From positions 1-48,883 of the forward strand of contig JAGFXO010000002.1 of the NCBI GenBank assembly GCA_017861285.1: a stretch of 48,883 bases of DNA, written 5' to 3'. Positions 36,187-48,883 of this stretch are shown here, piece by piece; the first letter of the stretch is position 1, and the number at the start of each line of letters is the position of its first letter. Below the pieces are notes generated by a model, which saw only the letters and a list, made by a program, of their open reading frames with translations, had not been told where the DNA came from and did not search any database. The position numbers and the translations under genes are program-made. Source of the stretch: Geobacteraceae bacterium. GTDB taxonomy: Bacteria; Desulfobacterota; Desulfuromonadia; Geobacterales; Geobacteraceae.

Positions 36187-38766
36187 TTACTCGTTATCCG
36201 AATCCATTTCATCGGCCTCATCGGTCACTTCCACGATGAGTTCTTCGGCATCATCACTTTCATCTTTCTCGGCAAGCTTCGCTACGGCAACGATTCTTTC
36301 GTTCTCTTCGGTAACCATGAGCCTGACACCCTGTGTATTCCGTCCAATAACCGAAAAACCCGCCACCGGAATCCTCAGTATCTTCCCGTTGTCGGTGATG
36401 AGCATCAGGTCATTCTCATCGGTTACCTGCTTGATATCCACGACACAACCGTTTCTTTCCGTGGTCTTTATAGTGATGACGCCTTTGCCGCCCCGCGACT
36501 GCAAGCGATATTCTCCCAGGTCCGTCCGTTTGCCGAACCCGTTTTCCGTCACTGTGAAGATAGTGGAATCCGAATAAGCCTCATTGACGATTGCCATCCC
36601 GATCACCACGTCGTCCCCTTCGAGGGTCATACCGCGCACACCCCTGCATATTCGTCCCATGGGTCGGGCATCCTCTTCCCGGAAACGGATCGATTTGCCA
36701 TTCCTTGAGGCAAGAAGCACGTCCCTCTTGCCGTCGGTCAGGGCTACGGAGATCAGTTTGTCACCCGAATCCAGGTTGACGGCGTTGATGCCTCCCGAAC
36801 GGATGTGGGCATATTCCCTGATCGGGCTCTTCTTGACTACACCGAACCGTGTCGCCATCATGAGGTACCAGTCTTCTTCGAAACCCTTGAGCGACAGTAT
36901 CGCGGTCACCATCTCCCCTTCCTGAAGGTTGAGGAGGTTAACAATGGCTTTGCCGCGGGCGGTTCTGCTTCCCTCGGGAATTTCGTAAACCTTCATCTGG
37001 TATACCCGGCCGGAGTCGGTGAAGAAGAGAATGAAGTCCTTGCTGGAGGCAATAAACAACTGTTCGACGAAATCCTCCTCTTTCGTTTTCATGCCGGTCT
37101 TTCCCTTGCCGCCGCGCCGCTGGGCACGGTAGAGGGTCGCCGGGCTCCTCTTGATGTAACCGGTGTGGCTGATGGTGACAACCATGTCCTCTTCGACAAT
37201 GGTATCCTCAAGGGAAATCTCGGCTGTCTTGTCAACGATTTCCGTGCGCCGCTCATCACCGAACTTCTCCCTCAATTCCGTGAGTTCGGTTACGATGATC
37301 TTGAGAATCTCCGACTCGGAGCCCAGAATTTCCTTGAGCCGGGCAATTACTTTGAGGATTTCGGCATACTCCTGAAGGATCTTTTCCCGCTCCAGACCGG
37401 TCAAACGCTGAAGCCGCATCTCAAGGATAGCCTGGGCCTGCTTCTCCGAAAGCTGAACGGACGGCGCATAGGGGGATCTTCTCTCTTCGGGTATCCCCAG
37501 CTTCGCAAGGTAGTCAGGATCCGAGAAGTTGCCTGCCATGAGGCCGGACCTGGCTTCTTCCGGGTTTTTTGCGGCCCGGATCAGTTCAATGACCGCATCC
37601 AGCCAATCAAGGGCAATCTTCAAACCTTCCAGGATATGGGCTCGTGCCTCCGCCTTCTTGAGTTCGAAGATGGTGCGCCGGGTAATGATTTCACGTCGGT
37701 GGTCGACAAACAGGTTAATGGTTTCCCGGAGAGTCAATACTTTCGGCCGGCCGCTGACGATGGCGAGCATGATGATGCCGAAGGAGGACTGCATCTGTGT
37801 CTGCTTGTAGAGATGGTTGAGTATCACCTGGGGATTCTCGTCCCGTTTCAGTTCGACAACGATCCTCATGCCGTCCCGGTCCGATTCATCGCGGATATCG
37901 CTGATGCCCTCGATCTTTTTCTCCCTCACCAGTTCGGCAATCTTTGCCACAAGGTTTGCCTTGTTCACCTGGTAGGGAATCTCGGTGATGATGATCGACT
38001 GGCGTTCGGTCTTCTTTTGCGTTTCCACAAAGGCCCGGGCCCGCATCTGGATAATTCCCCGGCCGGTCCTGTAAGCCTGGATTATCCCTTCCCGGCCGTA
38101 AATGAAACCGCCGGTGGGAAAGTCGGGACCCGGAATCAGGAGCAGAAGTTCTTCGAACGTCAGGTGCGGATTGCCGATGATGGTGATGATTGCGTCGATC
38201 ACCTCCCGCAGGTTGTGGGGCGGAATGTTGGTAGCCATGCCGACGGCGATCCCGGCCGAACCATTGACCAGCAGGTTGGGAAACTTGGCGGGGAGAACCA
38301 GCGGTTCCTGGAGGGAGCCGTCGTAGTTCTGCCCCATGTCCACGGTCTCCTTGTCAAGATCGGCCAGAAGTTCATGTGCAAGCTGCGACATTCGGATCTC
38401 GGTGTAGCGCATGGCCGCGGGCGAATCGCCGTCCACGGAGCCGAAGTTGCCCTGGCCATCCACCAGCGGGTAGCGGAGCGAAAAGTCCTGGGCCATTCTG
38501 ACAATGGTGTCGTAGGCGGCCGTGTCTCCGTGGGGATGATACTTACCGATCACGTCGCCGACCACGCGGGCAGATTTCTTGTACGGCTTGTTCCAGTCGT
38601 TCCCCATATCGTACATCGCATAGAGACAGCGCCGGTGCACCGGCTTCAGCCCGTCCCTGACGTCGGGCAGGGCACGGCCGATGATCACACTCATGGCATA
38701 GTCCATGTAGGAGCGTTTCATCTCGTCTTCGATGTTGATGGAAGTCTTGTTGATGGTTTCGAGCAT
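36187..38766 (-). CDS. gyrA: DNA gyrase subunit A
   Basis: The cleavage-reunion subunit of gyrase. The catalytic tyrosine is Tyr121 ([10 protein letters not shown]). The quinolone-pocket region is [11 protein letters not shown], with threonine 82 at the usual serine position and aspartate 86 present. The GyrA box QRRGGKG lies at the start of the C-terminal DNA-wrapping beta-pinwheel, and the protein ends in a strongly acidic tail (DDAEELIVE to DSDNE). 859 residues, normal. gyrB is not present upstream, where the window instead holds repeats and accessory genes. Confidence 0.98.
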
Positions 38767-38820
38767 TCAAACCTCGTAGAAGGCTACCGGGCCAAAAGCG
38801 CGGGCTAAAGGGATGCGCTT

Positions 38821-38855
38821 CCTCTGCCGTGTGCCCTGTGCCTTTTGCCGTGTAA
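38821..38855. repeat. Heptad repeat tract upstream of gyrA
   Basis: On the minus strand GGCAAAA, GGCACAG, GGCACAC units run in tandem, the fourth copy of the heptad family in this window. It lies at the edge of the accessory region. Confidence 0.6.
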
Positions 38856-38868
38856 GGGTACTAGATTA

Positions 38869-39110
38869 GATTAGTGAAAATTATCCTATATAAAATTCAA
38901 TATCTTACGAATAATTTCGCTCCATAACGCAACCTCTTTGAGCCTCAATTAATGCAAAAATCCCACTTTTGGCCCCATAAAGTGTTTTTTTCTACAAACC
39001 ACCCTAACATATTAAAATAAGAAGAGTATTTCACGCCTGAATTTTATGGGATTTTAGGGGAAATGCGTCAGGAAATCAAGGTTATCAAAGTTACCATACT
39101 TGTCGAGAGA
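38869..39110. repeat. Imperfect direct repeat, copy A
   Basis: About 240 bp, AT-rich, aligning with 42392-42632 over its whole length with scattered substitutions and small gaps. Shared blocks include TATAAAATTCAATAT, GGCCCCATAAA, CTGAATTTTA and AAAGTTACCATACTT. It contains no convincing gene. The DNA beyond it (39111-39358) has only a possible 32-codon remnant ORF (39139-39237, MNNGNFKTVARAAMDGG...) that I cannot identify. Confidence 0.75.
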
Positions 39111-39358
39111 ATAAAAGACCTTTCCGGTAACATGTTCTATGAACAATGGGAATTTCAAGACGGTTGCACGTGCAGCCATGGACGGCGGCTATGCAAAAGC
39201 GATTTGCATGCTCAAGAGGGTGAATCCTCAGGCCTGAATAGAGAGCGCGAAAGTAGTAGGCTCCCATACAATCGCAGGACAAGGTTTGTTTTGGTGCTAC
39301 AGTTACCGTGCGGAGGTAGAAGTCCTTACTTCATAAGGTATCTCCCTGTACCCGTCGA

Positions 39359-39655
39359 TCATGAGCCTGATGTCTTGTGACAACCCACACAGTCAACCGG
39401 GCCGGACTTGTTCTTTTCGTGACAACCTATGCATAGCTTATGTGGACGGAACTGCCCACTTTTCTTTATTGAACCAGGTCCTGTCTTGTGGCAAACCTCA
39501 CAATCTTTAATGGCTTCCTGATGCTTCTTATGAGTAAATATGACCTTCCCGCTTTCGGAAGGAAGTTCGATTATATCTGCAGCAAACCCCGTCCCAACAT
39601 AAAAAAGAATCGAAAGAGCAGCACATGTAAACTGAAGTACTTCCAGAGAGTGCAC
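39359..39655 (-). CDS. PpcA-like periplasmic triheme cytochrome c7
   Basis: 98 residues with three CxxCH heme sites (CEVCH, CIGCH, CVGCH). The mature start ADIIELPSESGKVIFTHKKH aligns well with the PpcA family of Geobacter, which carries electrons through the periplasm to metal-reducing chains. The signal peptide is odd: no basic residue precedes the hydrophobic core. The start is unclear. GTG 39655 lies inside the GAGGAGG signal, while CTG 39646 is 8 bases downstream of it. Mature cleavage after GFA is likely. Divergent from the polyferredoxin gene. Confidence 0.85.
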   Translation of the reverse strand: MHSLEVLQFTCAALSILFYVGTGFAADIIELPSESGKVIFTHKKHQEAIKDCEVCHKTGPGSIKKSGQFRPHKLCIGCHEKNKSGPVDCVGCHKTSGS

Positions 39656-39770
39656 CTCCTCAACGGTAAATGAATTAAACCTTCATGATTATATATCATA
39701 TTTTTTCCCATGCACATCCCGATCTTCAGGCCGCATGGACATAAGAACACGAATGTGGTTAAAAAATTCA

Positions 39771-39799
39771 TTGACAATCTTATATATTATATATATTAC
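39771..39799 (+). promoter_or_regulatory. Candidate promoter of the polyferredoxin gene
   Basis: A perfect TTGACA at 39771-39776, followed by an AT-only tract in which TATATT (39792-39797) or TATTAC (39794-39799) could be the -10 element (15- or 17-base spacer). The polyferredoxin ATG follows at 39826 with AGGAGG. A sigma-70 promoter is a reasonable reading. Confidence 0.5.
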
Positions 39800-39825
39800 T
39801 TTTCATATGTTTCTAGGAGGCATGT

Positions 39826-40473
39826 ATGGCAACAGCGAAAGCAATTTCCCGAAATAACTATAAATGGGGCCTCGCCCTTCTCATGGTCCTGGTGCTGGGA
39901 TTGGGATGGAAATATCCTTATCTCGGATTCATGGTGCCGATCGTCATGATCACTGGCCTTATCGGCTCCTTCCTCAAAGGTCGCGTCGTCTGCGGCAATT
40001 TCTGTCCGCGGGGAAGCTTTTTCGACACCTGGTTCAAGCCACTCGGTGGTTCAACGAAGGTCCCGAAACTGCTTACTACTCCGAAATTACGCTGGAGTTT
40101 GCTGGTGGCGTTGTTTTCCTTCATGATAGTCCAACTGTTGAGCGACATCGGAAGCGCCGCCCACTGGGGCACCGTCTTCTGGCGGGTTTGCATGGTAACG
40201 ACCTTGATTGCCCTGGTTGTGGGAGTTCGCTACCGGTCGCGGGCCTGGTGCGCATTCTGCCCCATGGGAACAATCCAGGGCGCCATTGGCGGCGAAAAAC
40301 ATGCTCTCTCCATTTCGACTTCATGTGCAGGCTGCGGCATCTGCGAAAAGAACTGTCCGATGGGACATGACATCGCGCATTCCAGGGAACGAGATATAGT
40401 CATGAACAGTGACTGCCTTCACTGCGGAGCCTGCGTATCAGCCTGCCCCCGGAATGCGCTCCAGGAAAAATGA
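39826..40473 (+). CDS. Membrane polyferredoxin (NapH/CcoG-like 4Fe-4S protein)
   Basis: 215 residues with about four membrane helices. Two CxxxCP motifs (CGNFCPRG and CAFCPMG) follow helices, as in NapH/NosR-type quinol-linked proteins. Two cytosolic 4Fe-4S motifs complete the C-terminus (CAGCGICEKNCPMG, CLHCGACVSACPRN). It would pass electrons between the quinone pool and a soluble partner. Start ATG 39826 has AGGAGG 5 bases upstream. The flavoprotein gene 71 bases downstream is a likely redox partner; the triheme cytochrome is encoded divergently. Confidence 0.9.
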   Translation: MATAKAISRNNYKWGLALLMVLVLGLGWKYPYLGFMVPIVMITGLIGSFLKGRVVCGNFCPRGSFFDTWFKPLGGSTKVPKLLTTPKLRWSLLVALFSFMIVQLLSDIGSAAHWGTVFWRVCMVTTLIALVVGVRYRSRAWCAFCPMGTIQGAIGGEKHALSISTSCAGCGICEKNCPMGHDIAHSRERDIVMNSDCLHCGACVSACPRNALQEK

Positions 40474-40544
40474 GCGTTTTTCAAGCTGAAGGTTAAATAC
40501 TGAAGGTTATGGAGAAATAATGCAAACAAAGGAGGATTGAAACC

Positions 40545-42239
40545 ATGAGCAAGAAGATCGTCGTTATCGGAGGATCGGCGGCCGGCCCCAAGGCTGCGGC
40601 GCGCGCCAAGCGACTGGACCCCGGCGCCGAGGTCACCATAATCCAGAAAGCGCCGGAGATGTCCATGGCGTCCTGCGGCTATCCCTATTTCGTCGGTGGC
40701 TTATTCAACAACCGTAACGCTCTCCTCAGCACTCCATACGGAGAGGTGCGCGACCCGCACTTCTTCGTGAACACCAAGGGGATAAAAGCCCGCACCGAAA
40801 CCGAAGTGATGTCCATCGACCGGCAGCGCCGGACGGTTCAGTGCCGTGATCTCACAAGCGACGCGCTGGATGAGGTGCCCTACGACAAACTTATCATCGC
40901 CACCGGCGCCAGGGCACGCAAACCGCCGCTGCCGGGCATCGACCTCGACGGCGTTACAACCCTCCAGTCCATGCGCGATGCCGATTTCCTCCGTCGCATA
41001 CGCGACGAGGGCGCCATCAAGAAGGCGGTTGTAATCGGCGGCGGACTGATCGGCATCGAGACATGCGAAGCACTCCAGTTGTCCGGCATCGATATCACGG
41101 TCATCGAAATGCTGCCCCAGATTCTCATGTTCCTGGACTGGGAACTGGCCAAGGTTCTGGAAAACCACGTGCGCAGCAAGGCCGCCAACGTCATTACCGA
41201 TGTCAAGCTGGCCGGATTCATCGGCGAGAACGGCCGTCTGACGGCAGTCAGGCTGGAAAACGGCACCGAGCTCCCCTGTGAGCTGGCGGTTCTGGCCATC
41301 GGTGTCGCTCCCAACACCGACCTTGCCCAGGCCGCGGGACTGGAGATCGGCACCACTGGCGGCATCCTGGTTGATGAGTACATGCAGACTTCCGATCCCG
41401 ATATCTACGCCGTAGGTGACTGCGTGGAGCTTGTGCACCGCATCACGGGAAAGAAGACCCGCGCTCCTTTCGGCGACCTGGCGAATCTGGAAGGCAGGGT
41501 GGCTGGTGAAAACGCTGTGCTCGGCAACAGCGTGACATTCCCCGGGACCTTCCATACCGGCATCTGCAAGGTGTTCGATTTCAATGCGGGCTCCACCGGA
41601 TTGTCCGAAAGCCGCGCCCGTCAAGAGGGATTCGAGAATATCGTCACGGTCATCAACGCAAGCCTCGACAAACCCGAGTTCATGGGCGCCAAGCTGTTGA
41701 TCTCCAAAATGGTTGTTGACGGAACAACGGGCAGGATACTGGGACTCCAGTGCGCAGGGCCCGGGGATGTAGGCAAACAGATATCCATGGCAGCCGTGGC
41801 CCTCCTCGGCAAACTAAAGGTCGCCGACGTGGTGAATGCGGACCTCCCCTATGCGCCACCTTTTTCCCTTGCCATCGATCACTTTATCGCCACCGCCCAT
41901 CTCATGGAGAACAAGCTAAAGGGACTGCTCAAAGGAATCGGCGCTGTGGAGCTCAAAGAGAAGTTGGACAAGGGAGAAACGCCCTTCCTTCTCGACGTAC
42001 GAACACCCGGGGAGTACGATATGATGCGGCTGGGTATCGGCGAGACGCTGATCCCCATCGGAGATTTGCGTCATCGGATGGACGATCTTCCTTCGGACAA
42101 GAACCGGGAGATCATCTGCTACTGCAAGATTTCTCTTCGGGGTTACGAAGCGGCCATTCTGCTGGAGGCGGAAGGCTGGGAAAACGTCAAGGTGCTGGAA
42201 GGCGGCGTCATGGCCTGGCCGTACCGGCGGGAAAAGTAA
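40545..42239 (+). CDS. FAD-dependent CoA-disulfide reductase-like/rhodanese fusion
   Basis: 564 residues. The N-terminal pyridine-nucleotide disulfide oxidoreductase has FAD motif VVIGGSAAGPKAAARAKR, a single redox cysteine Cys44 (MASCGYPYFVGG), an NAD motif VVIGGGLIGIETCEAL and the FAD-ribityl motif DIYAVGDCVE. A rhodanese domain occupies about 465-564 with LDVRTPGEYD and the active loop CKISLRG (Cys527). This architecture is that of CoA-disulfide or NAD(P)H-linked persulfide/polysulfide reductases. It probably acts on sulfane sulfur or CoA persulfide. Ribosome-binding site GGAGG at 40531-40535. Confidence 0.93.
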   Translation: MSKKIVVIGGSAAGPKAAARAKRLDPGAEVTIIQKAPEMSMASCGYPYFVGGLFNNRNALLSTPYGEVRDPHFFVNTKGIKARTETEVMSIDRQRRTVQCRDLTSDALDEVPYDKLIIATGARARKPPLPGIDLDGVTTLQSMRDADFLRRIRDEGAIKKAVVIGGGLIGIETCEALQLSGIDITVIEMLPQILMFLDWELAKVLENHVRSKAANVITDVKLAGFIGENGRLTAVRLENGTELPCELAVLAIGVAPNTDLAQAAGLEIGTTGGILVDEYMQTSDPDIYAVGDCVELVHRITGKKTRAPFGDLANLEGRVAGENAVLGNSVTFPGTFHTGICKVFDFNAGSTGLSESRARQEGFENIVTVINASLDKPEFMGAKLLISKMVVDGTTGRILGLQCAGPGDVGKQISMAAVALLGKLKVADVVNADLPYAPPFSLAIDHFIATAHLMENKLKGLLKGIGAVELKEKLDKGETPFLLDVRTPGEYDMMRLGIGETLIPIGDLRHRMDDLPSDKNREIICYCKISLRGYEAAILLEAEGWENVKVLEGGVMAWPYRREK

Positions 42240-42275
42240 CCATAATACGCTCGCATCTCCATCGCTGATAACAAC

Positions 42276-42314
42276 ACAAACCCCTGCCCGGGAGACTACT
42301 TGACAGGGGTTTGT
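42276..42314 (+). terminator. Strong hairpin after the flavoprotein gene
   Basis: ACAAACCCCTG (42276-42286) and CAGGGGTTTGT (42304-42314) form a perfect 11-bp stem with a 17-base loop, 37 bases after the stop codon. There is no long T-run, so termination is probable but not certain. Confidence 0.65.
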
Positions 42315-42391
42315 GAGTTTCTGAATGATGCTTGGCTTTTCAGCTCTGGACAGACAAGAATATCCTCGCTTGAAAGCAGTGTACGTGTACC

Positions 42392-42632
42392 TGATTAGTA
42401 AAAATTACCTTCTATAAAATTCAATATGTTGCGAGAAAATTGGCCCCATAAAATAATCTAGTTTGGCCCCAATTATTGCAAAAATCCTTCTTTATGGCCC
42501 CATAAAATGATTTTTAAATACAAACTGCCATAACTTATCAGAATAAGTGTTTTTTTCACATCTGAATTTTAAGGAATTTCAGGGGAAATGTGCCAAAAAT
42601 CAAGATTAATAAAGTTACCATACTTACAGAGA
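42392..42632. repeat. Imperfect direct repeat, copy B
   Basis: Second copy of the repeat at 38869. Here the GGCCCCATAAA block appears twice (42442, 42498), with a related TTGGCCCCAATTA between. Together the copies bracket the cytochrome, polyferredoxin and CoA-disulfide reductase-like genes. No ORF is supported in it. Confidence 0.75.
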
Positions 42633-42684
42633 CAAAGTTGGGGCATAGCGCTACAATGGCCACCGGAGAACAGGTAACGCGTAC

Positions 42685-42739: not shown

Positions 42740-43180
42740 TCAGGTTTCAAGCAAACAACCCGACGATTCGTTTTTCCGTTCGTAATATCGAATCTCGATC
42801 AAATTCTGCTCAGGGTCGCTGAAATAGATCGATACCCCGGTCCCATGTGCGCCCCATCTTTCTACCGGTCCCTGTTCAATTGCTACGTCAAGCTCGACAA
42901 GCCGCTCGCAAAGCCTTTCAAAATCCTCTCTACTTATCGAAAGGCAAAAGTGATTGAGGTTTGGCTCCGTCTTTTCCCCATGATACTTACGATCCCACAT
43001 TTTCCTGGGAAAAAGGTCGATAATGGTATCCGAGTTGATTCGTACAGAGGGAAACGGTACTTTGCCTTCATGGTACAATTCCAGCCGTTCAGGGATAAAC
43101 CCAAAGAGAGAGGCGTAAAATTCCACCTCTTCTTCAACATTAGTTACATTGAGAACAATATGGTCCATCAGAACATCCAT
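42740..43180 (-). CDS. VOC-family (glyoxalase/dioxygenase-like) metalloprotein
   Basis: 146 residues from ATG 43180, with GAGG 6 bases upstream; TTG 43186 is less likely. Two paired beta-alpha-beta-beta-beta modules are visible: MDHIVLNVTNVEEEVEFYASLFGF at the start and NLNHFCLSISREDFERL in the middle, ending in FSDPEQNLIEIRYYE. Putative metal ligands are His7, the histidine of NLNHF and the glutamate of LIEIRY. The substrate cannot be assigned. It follows a DUF488 pseudogene by about 12 bases and was probably its operon partner. Confidence 0.85.
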   Translation of the reverse strand: MDVLMDHIVLNVTNVEEEVEFYASLFGFIPERLELYHEGKVPFPSVRINSDTIIDLFPRKMWDRKYHGEKTEPNLNHFCLSISREDFERLCERLVELDVAIEQGPVERWGAHGTGVSIYFSDPEQNLIEIRYYERKNESSGCLLET

Positions 43181-43192
43181 GGTCAACCTCGC

Positions 43193-43591
43193 TCATAGTA
43201 TGACTGCAATGCGTTTCTGCCCGCCGAGCTGTATCAGTTGCTCGATGGTATCCTCAGAATCACTGGTCAACATGTAATCCGTAAAACCGCGGAATGAATC
43301 ATTGCGCTATCCGCTGTTCGGTGAGTCGTCTCTGGGGTGGCGGAGACCGCCCAGTCCCGGCATATGGGAGTAACCAATGCCTTCCGTCGCAAGAATCTCT
43401 GGGAGAGTGTCACGGTTGAACTGTGGGTTGTGTCGTGGTCTGGGTACTGTTCGTACGCCAACAAGTCTTCGAACACCATTGGTCAGCGGGAGACCGATGA
43501 ATTCATCAACCGGCAGTGTGGAATGTCCGATGGTGAGAATTGTAACTTCCTTGTCAACAGTGACCGATTTCGGTCCGGAAACTCCCGACAT
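43193..43591 (-). pseudogene. DUF488 pseudogene with a TAG nonsense codon
   Basis: The frame starts TVDKEVTILTIGHSTLP and continues with NGVRRLVGVRTVPRPRHNPQ and MPGLGGLRHPRDDSPNSG, the DUF488 signature. Then TAG (43307-43309) stands where the family has tryptophan. Reading through, the same frame continues RNDSFRGFTDYM and then EQLIQLGGQKRIAVIL before TGA at 43193, again typical, but the family C-terminus with CHR-type residues is lost. So one nonsense mutation plus a truncated end. An intact DUF488 member would be a small cytosolic protein of unknown function. Confidence 0.85.
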
Positions 43592-43812
43592 TATTTCCCC
43601 CGCTTATCCTTTGATCAATATCCAAAAAGATCAATGCTGGGATGCTTCCATATTTTATCATTTAATGGCAATGCCACAAAAAAGCCTAAAAAGTGTCCGA
43701 ATCAGGGGCAGAGAGACTGGTCCTGCATGCCGGCTTGTAAGTACGGTAATTTCATCTACTGGGGTTTGCTGCAAAATAGTTGCGGAGCGTCTCCCAGGCT
43801 TCTTGAAACGAG
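43592..43812. other. Possible frameshifted tail of the small membrane protein
   Basis: Immediately after the membrane ORF ends at 43813, another minus-strand frame reads CDSFQEAWETLRNYFAANPSR then stop, which looks like a natural protein end. A one-base shift would join it to the membrane ORF. Apart from this I see nothing coding. Confidence 0.3.
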
Positions 43813-44067
43813 TCACAAAGAACCTTGCATCTTCAAGTTCCGAATCATTCTGATATACTTTTCAATAAGTTTGTGATTTCGTACTTTTAAATTGGACTGA
43901 GTCATATACGCAAAGAAACGGGAAGCTACCGAAGCAAGGCAACAGCAGATAAACAATGCCGCCATGGGTATTATCGGTGTGAAAGGTATCCATGGAGCAA
44001 CGACTGCCGAAACCGAAGCGGCGGCCATTACCACTATGATTATCGGAACCATAAATTTTACGGTCAT
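43813..44067 (-). CDS. Small two-helix membrane protein, possibly frameshifted
   Basis: 84 residues with two hydrophobic segments (MVPIIIVVMAAASVSAVVAPW and MAALFICCCLASVA), then a basic helical tail (YMTQSNLKVRNHKLIEKYIRMIRN). No ribosome-binding site precedes ATG 44067. The frame stays open upstream and reads FQIEFKVALVQRM before it, so the true start may lie further up. No family recognised. A frameshift near the 3' end is suspected. It may be a decaying gene. Confidence 0.4.
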   Translation of the reverse strand: MTVKFMVPIIIVVMAAASVSAVVAPWIPFTPIIPMAALFICCCLASVASRFFAYMTQSNLKVRNHKLIEKYIRMIRNLKMQGSL

Positions 44068-44228
44068 TCGCTGGACAAGAGCAACTTTGAACTCGATCTG
44101 GAAACTGAGGCAAGTATCTCCGGGAGACCTTTGAGAAGTCTATTGCATTAAAAACAAGCCAAGATTAGAGAAGGAATGCAAAAAACATTTAATAACAAAG
44201 CATCTCTATCCAGAAGGAGGCACAGACG

Positions 44229-44867
44229 ATGAAAGCAATCACAGGGTTTTCCAAATCTTTTTGTGTCTTAATCGCAGCGGCGATACTGACTCTCGGCATG
44301 TACAGCTTTTCAGCGGCCCATTGCGACACCTTGGACGGTCCGGTCATACAGGATGCCCGAAAGGCGTTGGATGCCAAAGACGTCACTCCGGTGCTCAAAT
44401 GGGTACGGTCCAAAGACGAGAAAAGCGTGAAGGTTGCGTTCAACAAAGCACTCGCCGCACGTGGCAAGAAACAGCAGAAAACAGCCGAAACGAATTTTTT
44501 CGAGACCCTGGTAAAAATACATCGTGCGGGCGAAGGCGCGCCATTCACCGGGCTGAAGGCTGCCGGCACGGTGGAACCGGTAATTGCCGAGGCAGACAAG
44601 TCATTGGCCGCAGGCTCTGCGGAGGCAGTGGTCAAGCTGGTAACTGATGCGGTTGGTCAAGGTATCCGCCAGCGCTACGAAAAGGCAGCTGAGACGTACA
44701 AGCACAAGGATGAAAGTGTACAGAAGGGACGCGAGTTCGTAGCAGCATATATTGAATACACCCATTACGTGGAGCGACTGCACATTGATGCCAGCAGCGC
44801 AACCGGGCATCACGCGGGGAACTCCCACAAGGAGCATGCAACGCCGGGCCTTAAACATGACCATTAA
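44229..44867 (+). CDS. DUF6448-family exported protein
   Basis: 212 residues with a signal peptide (MKAITGFSKSFCVLIAAAILTLGMYSFSA) followed immediately by AHCDTLDGPV, the hallmark of DUF6448 proteins. The body is helical (VIQDARKALDAKDVTPVLKWV, EFVAAYIEYTHYVERLH) and the C-terminus is histidine-rich (ATGHHAGNSHKEHATPG), suggesting metal binding. Ribosome-binding site AAGGAGG upstream. Function unknown. It lies 54 bases before the iron-sulfur repair gene, so a shared transcript and a role in redox or nitrosative stress are possible. Confidence 0.85.
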   Translation: MKAITGFSKSFCVLIAAAILTLGMYSFSAAHCDTLDGPVIQDARKALDAKDVTPVLKWVRSKDEKSVKVAFNKALAARGKKQQKTAETNFFETLVKIHRAGEGAPFTGLKAAGTVEPVIAEADKSLAAGSAEAVVKLVTDAVGQGIRQRYEKAAETYKHKDESVQKGREFVAAYIEYTHYVERLHIDASSATGHHAGNSHKEHATPGLKHDH

Positions 44868-44921
44868 AACCGGGAAAGCGCAGGCAACATAACAAACCTG
44901 AAACGCAGCAAGGAGTGATCC

Positions 44922-45659
44922 ATGAAAGAATCATCGACACAACAACCGGCAGATATAAGCATCTCAGACAAAACTATCGGCGAAATTGTCGCGGATGATT
45001 ACCGGACAGCAAGTGTCTTCGAAAAACACGGCATCGATTTCTGCTGCGGCGGCAAGGTTGCCCTTTCGGCAATCTGCAGGGAAAAGGGCATCGAGCCTGC
45101 CGTCATACTCCGGGAGATCAAAGCCGTGAAGGAAACGTTGCTTGAGCGCAGTGCAAACTATGCTGCATGGGAGCTTCCATTCCTCGCCGATTTTATTATC
45201 AATACTCATCACGCCTATCTTAAAGAGAATATGGGGCAAATTGCCGTGCATACCGGCAAGATAGCAGACGTCCATGGCGTCAGACATCCCGAGGTGATAG
45301 AAATATCCCAAATCTTCGCCAGGATTGTAACCGACCTGGTGGACCACCTTGGTTATGAGGAAGACGTGTTTTTCCCGGCCATCAAACGTATTGATGGCGC
45401 CAGAAAGTCTGATGCGGTTCCGGAAACCAAAGATTCCGAAACAATCAGCGAAGGCCTTGTAAAGCTCCATCGTGAGCACGAAGAGGTCGGTGACGCAATC
45501 CACAGAATCCGTGATCTTGCAAAGGATTATGAAATTCCTGGCGATGTCTGTAACACCTTCACGGTCACTTATCGGGAACTCAAGGAGTTCGAGGATGACC
45601 TGCACAAACACGTGCATCTCGAAAACAACATTCTCTTCCCAAAAGCTGCGAATCTGTGA
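44922..45659 (+). CDS. ric: Iron-sulfur cluster repair di-iron protein (Ric/ScdA/YtfE)
   Basis: Repairs iron-sulfur clusters damaged by NO or oxidants, using a hemerythrin-like diiron centre. The ScdA N-terminal domain (about 15-70) has the motif HGIDFCCGG. The hemerythrin domain holds ligand candidates INTHHAYL, HLGYEEDVFFP, LHREHEEVG and HVHLENNILFP. The 245-residue length is normal. A rubredoxin-like ORF and a flavodiiron gene follow, giving a coherent NO/O2 detoxification and repair cluster. Confidence 0.94.
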   Translation: MKESSTQQPADISISDKTIGEIVADDYRTASVFEKHGIDFCCGGKVALSAICREKGIEPAVILREIKAVKETLLERSANYAAWELPFLADFIINTHHAYLKENMGQIAVHTGKIADVHGVRHPEVIEISQIFARIVTDLVDHLGYEEDVFFPAIKRIDGARKSDAVPETKDSETISEGLVKLHREHEEVGDAIHRIRDLAKDYEIPGDVCNTFTVTYRELKEFEDDLHKHVHLENNILFPKAANL

Positions 45660-45696
45660 TGAAAGTATCTTGCCGGAAGAATGGAGATAGAAAGCG

Positions 45697-45816
45697 ATGC
45701 TAAAAACCAAAAGATGGCAGTGCCTTGTTTGCGGGTATATACACGACGGCCCTGCACCACCAAAGATATTTCCCAATTGTGGCGTCGACAGTTCCAGGTT
45801 TATTCCCTACAAGTAA
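45697..45816 (+). CDS. 39-residue rubredoxin-like ORF lacking one metal cysteine
   Basis: Too short for most ORF scans. It reads MLKTKRWQCLVCGYIHDGPA and then PPKIFPNCGVDSSRFIPYK, clearly a rubredoxin domain of the rubrerythrin C-terminal kind. The first knuckle CLVC is intact. The second, normally CPNCG, is FPNCG: Phe25 replaces cysteine (TTT for TGT or TGC). GGAG lies 11 bases upstream. It is placed between ric and a flavodiiron gene, where an electron-donor rubredoxin would be expected. It may be a recently inactivated gene or an altered metal site. Confidence 0.7.
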   Translation: MLKTKRWQCLVCGYIHDGPAPPKIFPNCGVDSSRFIPYK

Positions 45817-45900
45817 AGGCAAGAATGCCCGACGACACACCTCAAAGGGTATTTTCCCGAACGTGCGGGATTATCCATGCACTGATGGAGGAGAGTTATT

Positions 45901-47091
45901 ATGGGTTTTCAGGTAAAAGGAAACATATCTTGGGTGGGAAAGATCGATTGGGAACTCCGCAAGTTCCATGGTGAAGAATACTCCACCCACAGGGGCTCGT
46001 CGTATAATTCATATCTTGTCCGAGATGAAAAAACGGCGCTGATCGATACCGTTTGGAAACCGTTTGCAAGGGAATTCATCGAAAACCTTAAAACAGAAAT
46101 TGATCTAAAAAAAATTGACTTCATTATCGCAAATCATGCCGAAAGCGACCACAGCGGCGCCTTGCCGGAACTGATGCGCCTGATCCCCGACACCCCCATC
46201 TACTGTACCGCCAATGCCGTCAAGTCGCTGAAGGGGCACTATCACCAGGACTGGAATTTCAGAACCGTGAAGACCGGCGACCGATTGAATATCGGCTCGA
46301 AGGATTTCATCTTTATCGAAGCGCCGATGCTTCATTGGCCTGACACTATGTTCTGCTACCTGACCGGAGACAATATCCTGTTCAGCAACGATGCGTTCGG
46401 GCAGCACCTTGCCTCGGAACTGATGTTCAACGACCTGGTCGACCAGGCAGAACTGTTCCAGGAATGCATCAAGTACTATGCGAATATCCTGACGCCTTTC
46501 AGCGCAATGGTCGACCGGAAAATCAAGGAAGTCGTCGGATTGGGCCTGCCGGTCGACATGATCTGCACCAGCCACGGCGTCATCTGGCGGGACAACCCGC
46601 TCCAGATCGTATCCAAATACGCGGAATGGGCCGCCAACTACCATGAAAACCAGGTTACGATCATCTATGACACCATGTGGGACGGAACGAGAAGAATGGC
46701 AGAAGCAATCGGGAAAGGCATCCATGATGCGGATAAGGACGTGACTATCAAGATATATAACGCCGCCCGCAGCGACAAGAATGACATCATCACCGAAGTG
46801 TTCAAATCAAAGGCTGTCCTGATTGGCTCCCCAACGGTTAATCGTGGCATTCTCTCGGCAATCGCCGGGATTCTCGAAGAAATCAGAGGGCTGGGGTTCA
46901 AGGACAAGAAAGCTGCGGCATTCGGGACATACGGTTGGAGCGGAGAATCGGTTGCCATGATAACGGATCGGCTGCGTGAGGGCGGTTTCCAGTTGCTTGG
47001 CGACGGGTTGAAAGGGCTCTGGAACCCCGATGAACAGGGCCTTGCGAACTGCGTGGACTTTGGCAGAGACTTTGGTCGGCAGGTGAAATGA
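45901..47091 (+). CDS. FprA-family flavodiiron protein, second copy
   Basis: 396 residues. Diiron motif [11 protein letters not shown] near residue 80, LHWPDTMF and CTSHGVIW follow; the flavodoxin domain starts near 250 ([16 protein letters not shown]) and ends with GTYGWSGES. The C-terminus has no rubredoxin. Start ATG 45901 with GGAGGAG 9 bases upstream. It differs markedly from the copy at 192 and lies in the Ric cluster, so NO or O2 reduction under nitrosative stress is the likely role, with the adjacent rubredoxin-like ORF as possible former donor. Confidence 0.94.
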
Positions 47092-47154
47092 TTATTTTTG
47101 ACGCCATAAAGCGGACTACAGCCTCGGCTAAAGAACTGATATGGCTGTCAGTAG

Positions 47155-47458
47155 TCAACAGGGAAAATAATTCCCCACCCCTCGGATTAAGGGTTTTTTT
47201 AAAAGCATGTCTCCCAGGCTACAGGTAGAGACGGGACCTTGTGGCGACGTGTGATCACTCTGATATACGCGGGTTGGGTACCGCATGGCTTGTCTTCTTC
47301 GCCGAGCTGCCTCGCTCTAAAATCGGAAGTTCGGCAAATGCCTTATTCACATAGTTCCGTCGAGGATTCTCCTGAACGTGATCGCGTCTCTGCCTCTGGC
47401 CTGGGATTTTTGTCGTTTTTTGAGCCTGGTTTCCTCCTTAACGGCGATTGTTGTTCGG
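47155..47458 (-). ncRNA. Candidate bridge-RNA region of the IS1111-like element
   Basis: The noncoding stretch between the transposase stop and the left inverted repeat. In IS1111-type elements the bridge RNA that pairs with target and donor DNA comes from the end downstream of the transposase gene; this placement matches. I could not draw its loops with confidence. Near its outer edge, on the plus strand, a weak hairpin with a T7 run (47179-47200) could end the flavodiiron transcript. Confidence 0.35.
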
Positions 47459-48226
47459 TTACGCCTTTTCCGGTAACCGTGCACAGGCAATGGCCCACAT
47501 GAACGCACATAACTCGCGGGCGATGGCGGTCACAACGCTTTTGCGGTTCTTCCCTCTCGCAATGAGCCTGCGGAAACGGCCACAGAGCCTGACTTGGGCT
47601 TTCCAGGCGATGTTGCGGACCTCTTGCGGCAAGCCGTCAAGTCGGCCAACAAGGCTTCGGCTCTCCCGGGCCGGGTGGCTGTATGTCTGGGCTGCTTCCG
47701 TGAGCACCCGGCGTACATGGCCATTGCCGGTCTTGGTAATGCCTCCCCGTCTTGTTGTCGAGCCGCTGGAGTGCTCACTGGGCACGAGTCCCAGATACGC
47801 CATCAACTGTTTTGGCGAATCAAACCGGGTCAGGTCCCGCATGGCTTCATCATCCGCTGAGGGCACATGGATAGCAGTCAATTATCCCGAGCGGTGCAGA
47901 CGGGCCAGATTTACCGCATCCCGTCGGTCATTCTTGATCCGCTGGCCGCTCTTGCGGGGAATCAGCGACGGGGCGGCAACAACACAATCGAAGCCTTGTC
48001 TTGACAGAAAGCGATAGATGTCGTACCCGCAAGGGCCGGCCTCATACACGAAGCGGAGCGTGACGCCTTTGCCTTGCAGTTTGCGAACGACCTTGTGCAG
48101 CGATTCAAGATCGCCACCGATTGTGCCGTAAAACCTCGCTTCACTAGCCCGGCTCGCATCGGCAAGCGCAACATCAATGGAGTTTTTGTGAACATCAAGA
48201 CCGACAAATATGGTATTCTTATTCAT
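47459..48226 (-). pseudogene. IS110-family transposase pseudogene
   Basis: Starts at ATG 48226 with a perfect GGAGG 6 bases upstream. The DEDD catalytic domain is recognisable: FVGLDVHKNSIDVA, YEAGPCGYDIYRFL and KNDRRDAVNLARLHRSG. TAA at 47882-47884 then interrupts the frame, which continues LTAIHVPSADDEAMRDLTR and passes straight to FDSPKQLMAYLGLVPSE, TTRRGGITKTGNGHVRR, the C-terminal serine domain. About 130 residues normally lie between these two parts. So the gene has one nonsense codon and one in-frame deletion and cannot be active. Confidence 0.9.
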
Positions 48227-48319
48227 GACCTGCCTCCTTGGTTGTGGCTCTGTATTGGTTACTCCCAATATAACCCACGTTTGCAAGGGGCAGGTCTCCT
48301 GTTTTCTACTGACAGCCAT

Positions 48320-48655
48320 TATGTCTAGAATATCGTCTCGAACAACCTCACGTCCAGCGATGCGTTTCTCCACACTTTCACGGATAACCAAAGCACGTGG
48401 GCTGGAAAGATCGCGCAATGCTTCCAAAGCTCGTTCACTCTTTCGTTCTTGATAGAACGTAATGCCCATGACTGCGAATACAAAACCAAGAAGCATCAGT
48501 GCTTCCTCAACATCACCCAATAGAAAGTAGAAAACACCACCTCCGACAAGAAGCAATAACATCGGCTCACGAACAACAGAAAAAGCGATAGCGAATACAC
48601 TACGCCGTTTTGCCGAAGGAAGTTCGTTATAGACTTCTTCCGACAATCTTATCAT
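48320..48655 (-). pseudogene. 5' fragment of a P-type cation ATPase, truncated by the IS element
   Basis: From ATG 48655 the frame reads LSEEVYNELPSAKRRS, a membrane hairpin (LLLLVGGGVFYFLL, ALMLLGFVFAVMGITFYQERK) and the start of the actuator domain (RALVIRESVEKRIAGREVVRDDIL). This is the N-terminus of a Ca2+-type P-type ATPase. It ends at the IS element near 48330. No matching remainder (DKTGT, TGD motifs) is found on the other side of the IS, where the flavodiiron gene lies, so the rest was lost or moved. The AT-rich 48656-48883 stretch upstream has no recognised gene. Confidence 0.85.
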
Positions 48656-48883
48656 TGCTCCCGTTCAAAAAGGCCGTGAAAATATTTGATGTCGAAATTA
48701 CTATGCAAAAAAGATCTCCATTACTGCAATCATGGGATATAATCAACGCCAATGCAGTTCAGTGCTGAATGATTGATACAACAAAAACGATAATTTCTTT
48801 TCTGTGATTTGCTGCAAAGCAATCAAGTTCTTAACAGCAACAACTTGAGTATATGATAGTATTCATAGAGCATGACCAACATC

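Follow-up and report, generated by a model that had tools for sequence, protein, structure and literature searches.

Direct repeats bracketing a redox gene module beside gyrA as probable left ends of Tn7-like elements that use gyrB as their attachment site

The window, by which we mean the whole 48,883-nucleotide stretch of DNA analysed here, carries two direct repeats, A and B, which are very likely the left ends of Tn7-like elements with gyrB as their attachment site. The repeats bracket three redox genes, as the preliminary description of this DNA had it; we find that these encode a cytochrome, a NapH-like protein and a CoA-disulfide-reductase-like protein (39359-42239; Table 1). We consider it probable (about 0.65) that the pair goes back to two successive insertions at the same site, whose order, together with a deletion within the older element, we infer. 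More generally, a widespread Tn7-like lineage in the order probably uses the 3' end of gyrB through its own TniQ/TnsD protein and has repeatedly stacked elements there; split gyrBA loci would then be archives of defence and respiratory cargo, and the window would be one such archive, in which two left ends bracket a redox module.

Table 1. Features of the window between gyrA and the end of the contig
Feature	Position	Strand	Basis or remark
gyrA	36187-38766	-	
Spacer from gyrA to terminus A	38767-38850	.	Outer 5 bp CGGCA (gyrB to gyrA direction)
Copy A, Tn7-like left end (very likely)	38851-39000	+	Terminus TGTAAGGGTAC at 38851 faces gyrA
Degenerate TnsB-like sites of copy A	38919 (GCTCCATAACG), 38940 (GAGCCTCAATTAATG), 38971 (GGCCCCATAAA)		Sequence
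End motif of copy A	38992-38996		CTACA
Inner sequence of A, past the last TnsB-like site	39001-39111	+	Common to B
c7-type triheme cytochrome c (cargo)	39359-39655	-	Pfam Cytochrome_C7; NCBIfam cytochrome c7 E = 5e-27, under the curated cut-off
NapH/MauN-like 4Fe-4S membrane protein (cargo)	39826-40473	+	Pfam Fer4_5, Fer4_9; napH subfamily model E = 1.6e-15, under the cut-off
CoA-disulfide-reductase-like flavoprotein with C-terminal rhodanese domain (cargo)	40545-42239	+	Pfam Pyr_redox_2, Pyr_redox_dim, Rhodanese; CoA-disulfide reductase model E = 3e-103, under the cut-off
Inverted repeat 3' of the CoA-disulfide-reductase-like gene	42260-42330	+	Sequence; probably the transcription terminator of that gene
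Copy B, second left end (very likely), same orientation	42380-42522	+	Terminus TGTACGTGTACC at 42380; outer 5 bp CTGCT
TnsB-like sites of copy B	42442 (GGCCCCATAAAA), 42465 (GGCCCCAATTATTG), 42496 (GGCCCCATAAAATG)		Sequence
End motif of copy B	42519-42522		TACA
Inner sequence of B	42523-42635	+	Common to A
Rest of the island to the contig end	42740-48883	.	On the gyrB side of B; glyoxalase-like, DUF488 fragment, DUF6448, iron-sulfur repair protein Ric, flavodiiron NO reductase, IS110 remnant

Copies A and B share an orientation and can be aligned over their full length with 76-78% identity, each spanning about 260 bp at its true edges (BLAST: 233 bp at 78% identity, E = 6e-45). Alignment thus bore out the end-to-end repetition first described and moved its outer edges from 38869 and 42392 to 38851 and 42380: copy A covers 38851-39111 and copy B 42380-42635, with inner edges that are approximate, the likeness fading there. 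Homology begins abruptly at a TGTA terminus in both copies (38851, TGTAAGGGTAC; 42380, TGTACGTGTACC), and the 40 bp outside the two termini bear no likeness to each other. The early impression of AT-rich repeats amid GC-rich DNA agrees with GC contents of 0.337 for A and 0.305 for B against 0.543 for the window. The motif GGCCCCATAAA, already noted as recurring inside the copies, is found in exact form three times in the window, every time within A or B, with a chance expectation of 0.02. Searching the source genome (2.46 Mb in 225 contigs) for the repeat, a check that had been proposed, returned A and B and no further copy. Motif matches elsewhere in this genome do not fit the end profiles described below. 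An inner stretch of about 110 bp (39001-39111 and 42523-42635) is common to A and B and lies outside the region matched by the left ends of other genomes.

We built a left-end profile solely from the left ends of the relatives G073, G080, G106, G067 and G064, with no window sequence in it. Searched with nhmmer, the window gave exactly two matches, both starting at model position 1: B at 42380-42522 (66.8 bits, E = 4.6e-20) and A at 38851-39000 (38.1 bits, E = 3e-11). The next match had an E-value of 0.69, and chance scores for this profile lie below 11 bits. Both copies match known left ends in having a TGT terminus and several TnsB-type sites set apart from one another, and their layout of a terminal site, a gap and three inner sites is that of the left ends in relatives. 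Copy A also lies on the gyrA side, where the left ends of G073, G106 and G067 are found, and starts 84 bp from the gyrA start codon, the usual left-end position. The motifs GGCCCCATAAA and GGCCCCAATTA are the presumed TnsB sites; the initial guess that GGCCCCATAAA is a protein-binding site is very probably right, with TnsB as the protein. The suggestion that the repeats belong to a mobile element is likewise retained, in the form of Tn7-like left ends, whereas an IS-derived segment, a regulatory duplication and the ends of a composite unit are not supported.

In the window, a right-end profile matched the inner sites of A and B alone, and it detected no right end facing the left ends. Neither pattern and profile searches of the source genome nor the 20 of its 225 contigs that were read revealed a right end. 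A relative of TnsA was not found in this fragmented genome, nor was a TniQ, in a search run without a positive control. The right side is unassembled and a right end may lie there, and our claim therefore concerns end remnants and not a complete element.

In the source genome, gyrB is the final gene on a different contig (C79). Just 11 bp of sequence follow the gyrB stop codon there, and the contig breaks off roughly at the point expected for the start of a right end. With gyrA beside A and gyrB terminal on C79, the segment 38851-48883 therefore sits in a gap opened between gyrB and gyrA; the genes at 42740-48883, on the gyrB side of B, therefore also lie inside this gap. Among them, Ric adjoins the flavodiiron NO reductase (44922-47091), forming a nitric-oxide defence pair that is probably island cargo as well. 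At the contig end, an IS110-type transposase in two frames (47459-48655) is fused in frame behind an apparent P-type cation ATPase start.

Between gyrA and terminus A lies a spacer similar to the low-complexity one that separates gyrB from gyrA at unoccupied sites in the same family. The preliminary description had proposed to look in relatives for the module or for an empty site with a single repeat. Unoccupied sites are common: gyrA follows gyrB within 700 bp in 82 of the 129 related genomes in which both genes could be placed. The gap measures 127 bp in a genome of the same genus (G001), with no end-like sequence, and the repeat motif was absent from the 20 empty sites read. One relative (G085, C7, 9529-9590) has about 50 bp of a right end alone separating gyrB from gyrA, seemingly left behind by an element since lost.

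A 261-bp query gave short matches in G073 and G064, both located between gyrB and gyrA, and pattern searches across the order and class found TGTAGGGGGCCCCAATTAATG...GGCCCCAATTAGTG arrays directly behind gyrB in further genomes. The right end begins 5-12 bp past the gyrB stop codon in 19 of 19 genomes, comprising 12 tabulated at first and seven found by profile (G114, G116, G075, G091, G089, G078 and G130), the latter with gyrB and gyrA on different contigs. The related elements in these 19 genomes are therefore fixed and oriented insertions behind one conserved gene. Five weak right-end matches with two mismatches (G193, G197, G231, G039 and G090) were assumed to be chance.

Exact 5-bp target duplications are present on both sides of the insertions in G067 (TGTTG), G106 (TAATT), G073 (GCACG) and G064 (AGGGT), which measure 57.8 kb (in a gap of 57.9 kb), 18.65 kb, 21.7 kb and 3.98 kb, respectively. 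The complete elements found all pair a single left end with a single right end, the two facing each other. According to Pfam, the gap in G067 (C22:155000-214500) contains tnsA (PF08722), tnsB (rve and Mu-transpos_C), tnsC (TniB) and tniQ (TniQ and helix-turn-helix), and the element runs from TGTAGGGGTACCC... behind gyrB to ...CCTACA about 100 bp before gyrA. In G073, a fragment of TnsA (PF08722, E = 1e-9) lies 0.3 kb behind the right-end array. Transposition of the Tn7 type is recognised by just this set of features: a 5-bp duplication, TGT termini, arrays of repeated sites, and insertion at a fixed position and in a fixed orientation behind one gene. The preliminary description would have been overturned by a common upstream element that occurs without gene movement. 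The repeats are not of this kind, because their copies in relatives edge insertions at a single site that have target duplications and vary in cargo.

Elements at this site also occur in tandem. The right end behind gyrB in G080 is preceded by AATTT, and on another contig of the same genome (C122:100-320) a left end is followed by AATTTGT and then by a second right end; here, a later element is inserted between gyrB and an earlier one. On contig C357 of G123, two right ends follow each other in direct orientation at a distance of about 90 bp. These two relatives show how two like ends in a row can arise. G123 also holds a second type of element (L181, C254:1-13897), with tnsA-tnsB-tnsC-tniQ, a TGTAGG terminus 3 bp behind gyrB and other end repeats; the TniQ proteins of L181 and G067 share 21% identity over 538 residues. 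The end repeats of L181 differ, and gyrB may therefore serve more than one Tn7-like lineage.

The cargo of the relatives is varied. Dru/DISARM/Dpd-like helicases, a type IIG-like methyltransferase, a SIR2 protein and Wadjet JetA/JetC (JetC in two frames) were noticed in G067, whose 57.8-kb element apparently carries several defence systems. The insert of G111 seems, from translations only, to carry pyruvate dehydrogenase genes.

By analogy with Tn7, on which the binding roles proposed here for TnsB and TnsD are modelled, a TniQ/TnsD protein would bind the end of gyrB and TnsC would bridge to it there. TnsA and TnsB would excise the element via the site arrays (GGCCCCATAAA / GGCCCCAATTA.TG, 21-31 bp apart) beside the TGTAgg termini and join it 5-12 bp past the gyrB stop codon, with the right end toward gyrB, the left end toward gyrA and 5 bp duplicated. 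In the source genome, at least two related elements would have landed in turn at the gyrB site. The older left end, A, would have stayed beside gyrA, and the left end of the later element, B, would now lie 3.5 kb further in. Deletion of the right end and the tns genes of the older element would have left its cargo, the cytochrome, NapH-like and CoA-disulfide-reductase-like genes, stranded between the two left ends. The 140 bp outside B contain neither a right end nor the gyrB-gyrA spacer, and hence we infer the history of B.

A single Tn7-like insertion, the left end of which was later copied within the island by local duplication or rearrangement, would also leave two left ends in the same orientation, and we regard this as possible, if rather unlikely. 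It would fit an identity between A and B (76%) that exceeds the identity of either to the left ends of other genomes (51-62%), the likeness that continues for about 110 bp past the last binding site, and the lack of a right end adjoining B. A random duplication, however, would not be expected to end exactly at a transposon terminus, as the homology between A and B does, and tandem insertion at this very site is seen in relatives. Two successive insertions remain our preferred reading. Matching repeats on either side of three genes had also suggested a composite unit with A and B as its boundaries that moves the module alone. Such a unit is very improbable, because in all complete elements at this site a single left end faces a single right end, whereas A and B are both left ends pointing in the same direction; moreover, no copy of the three-gene module was seen in the other inserts read, and the genome contains no further copy of the repeats.

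The position of the repeats upstream of gyrA and their repeated binding-site-like motifs could also suggest regulatory elements with no role in transposition, acting on gyrA or the redox genes, perhaps as binding sites of a regulator that responds to supercoiling or redox state. This seems a remote prospect given that 82 relatives lack the repeats between gyrB and gyrA and that, where present, the repeats mark inserts with 5-bp duplications and tns genes. The ends of IS21-type insertion sequences also bear repeated subterminal sites, and the insert of G073 with the matching ends also contains an IS21 copy. The istAB copies seen in the source genome (G000) and in G073 nevertheless have different ends, with no ends of the A/B type flanking istAB, and the matching ends accompany tnsABC-tniQ and a fixed position behind gyrB, so that an IS21 origin is likewise very improbable. 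A replication origin, considered on account of AT-rich repeats near gyrA, was dropped after the right ends and tns genes had been found. A plasmid collection contained no similar DNA that would point to a plasmid origin, and viral contigs gave no exact match to the motif patterns. Of five matches in a wider contig scan, three (cyanobacterial, Desulfovibrio and Bacteroidales) lie in unrelated coding sequence and were judged to be chance.

Elements of this kind explain why two genes that are normally neighbours, gyrB and gyrA, stand apart in a considerable part of the order, and inspecting the interval between the two genes offers a simple way of finding cargo. In the source genome, this interval is a landing site for imported genes: the redox genes of the window are acquired cargo and not core genes, and the nitric-oxide and iron-sulfur-repair genes past B probably are as well. 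Because the G067 and L181 elements possess full tnsABC-tniQ sets and a predicted target, target recognition can be tested directly, and the elements could enlarge the range of safe insertion sites known so far.

Tn7-like transposons with dedicated TniQ/TnsD selectors are already well known. Two large surveys of them (Benler 2021, PMC8649781; Faure 2023, PMC10293859) describe cargo-laden elements, often with defence systems, and dedicated TniQ/TnsD target selectors at safe sites; their main texts mention neither gyrB nor gyrase. The literature on TnsD, TniQ or Tn7-like elements together with gyrB, mostly at the level of titles and abstracts, yielded no report of a gyrB attachment site; one such paper employs gyrB solely as a phylogenetic marker. 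Provisionally, gyrB appears to be an unreported attachment site for Tn7-like elements.

Compared with Tn7 itself (TnsABCD, with attTn7 behind glmS), the gyrB-associated elements of the relatives share TGT...ACA termini and a 5-bp target duplication, as well as arrays of TnsB sites laid out differently at the left and right ends. They insert in one orientation, a few bp past a conserved gene that their right end adjoins, and they also share TnsA, TnsB and TnsC together with a target protein bearing a TniQ domain. They differ from Tn7 in the target gene, gyrB instead of glmS, and in the sequence of the TnsB sites, and the window differs further in keeping left ends only, with neither a TnsA relative nor a TniQ found in the searches of its genome. 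The TnsB of G067 is related to that of Tn6677 and the I-F3 CRISPR-associated Tn7-like transposons (E about 1e-72 to 1e-75). Unlike in those systems, an informal look at the G067 element noticed no Cas genes or CRISPR array, and its TniQ is a long, TnsD-like protein of 659 amino acids with a helix-turn-helix match.
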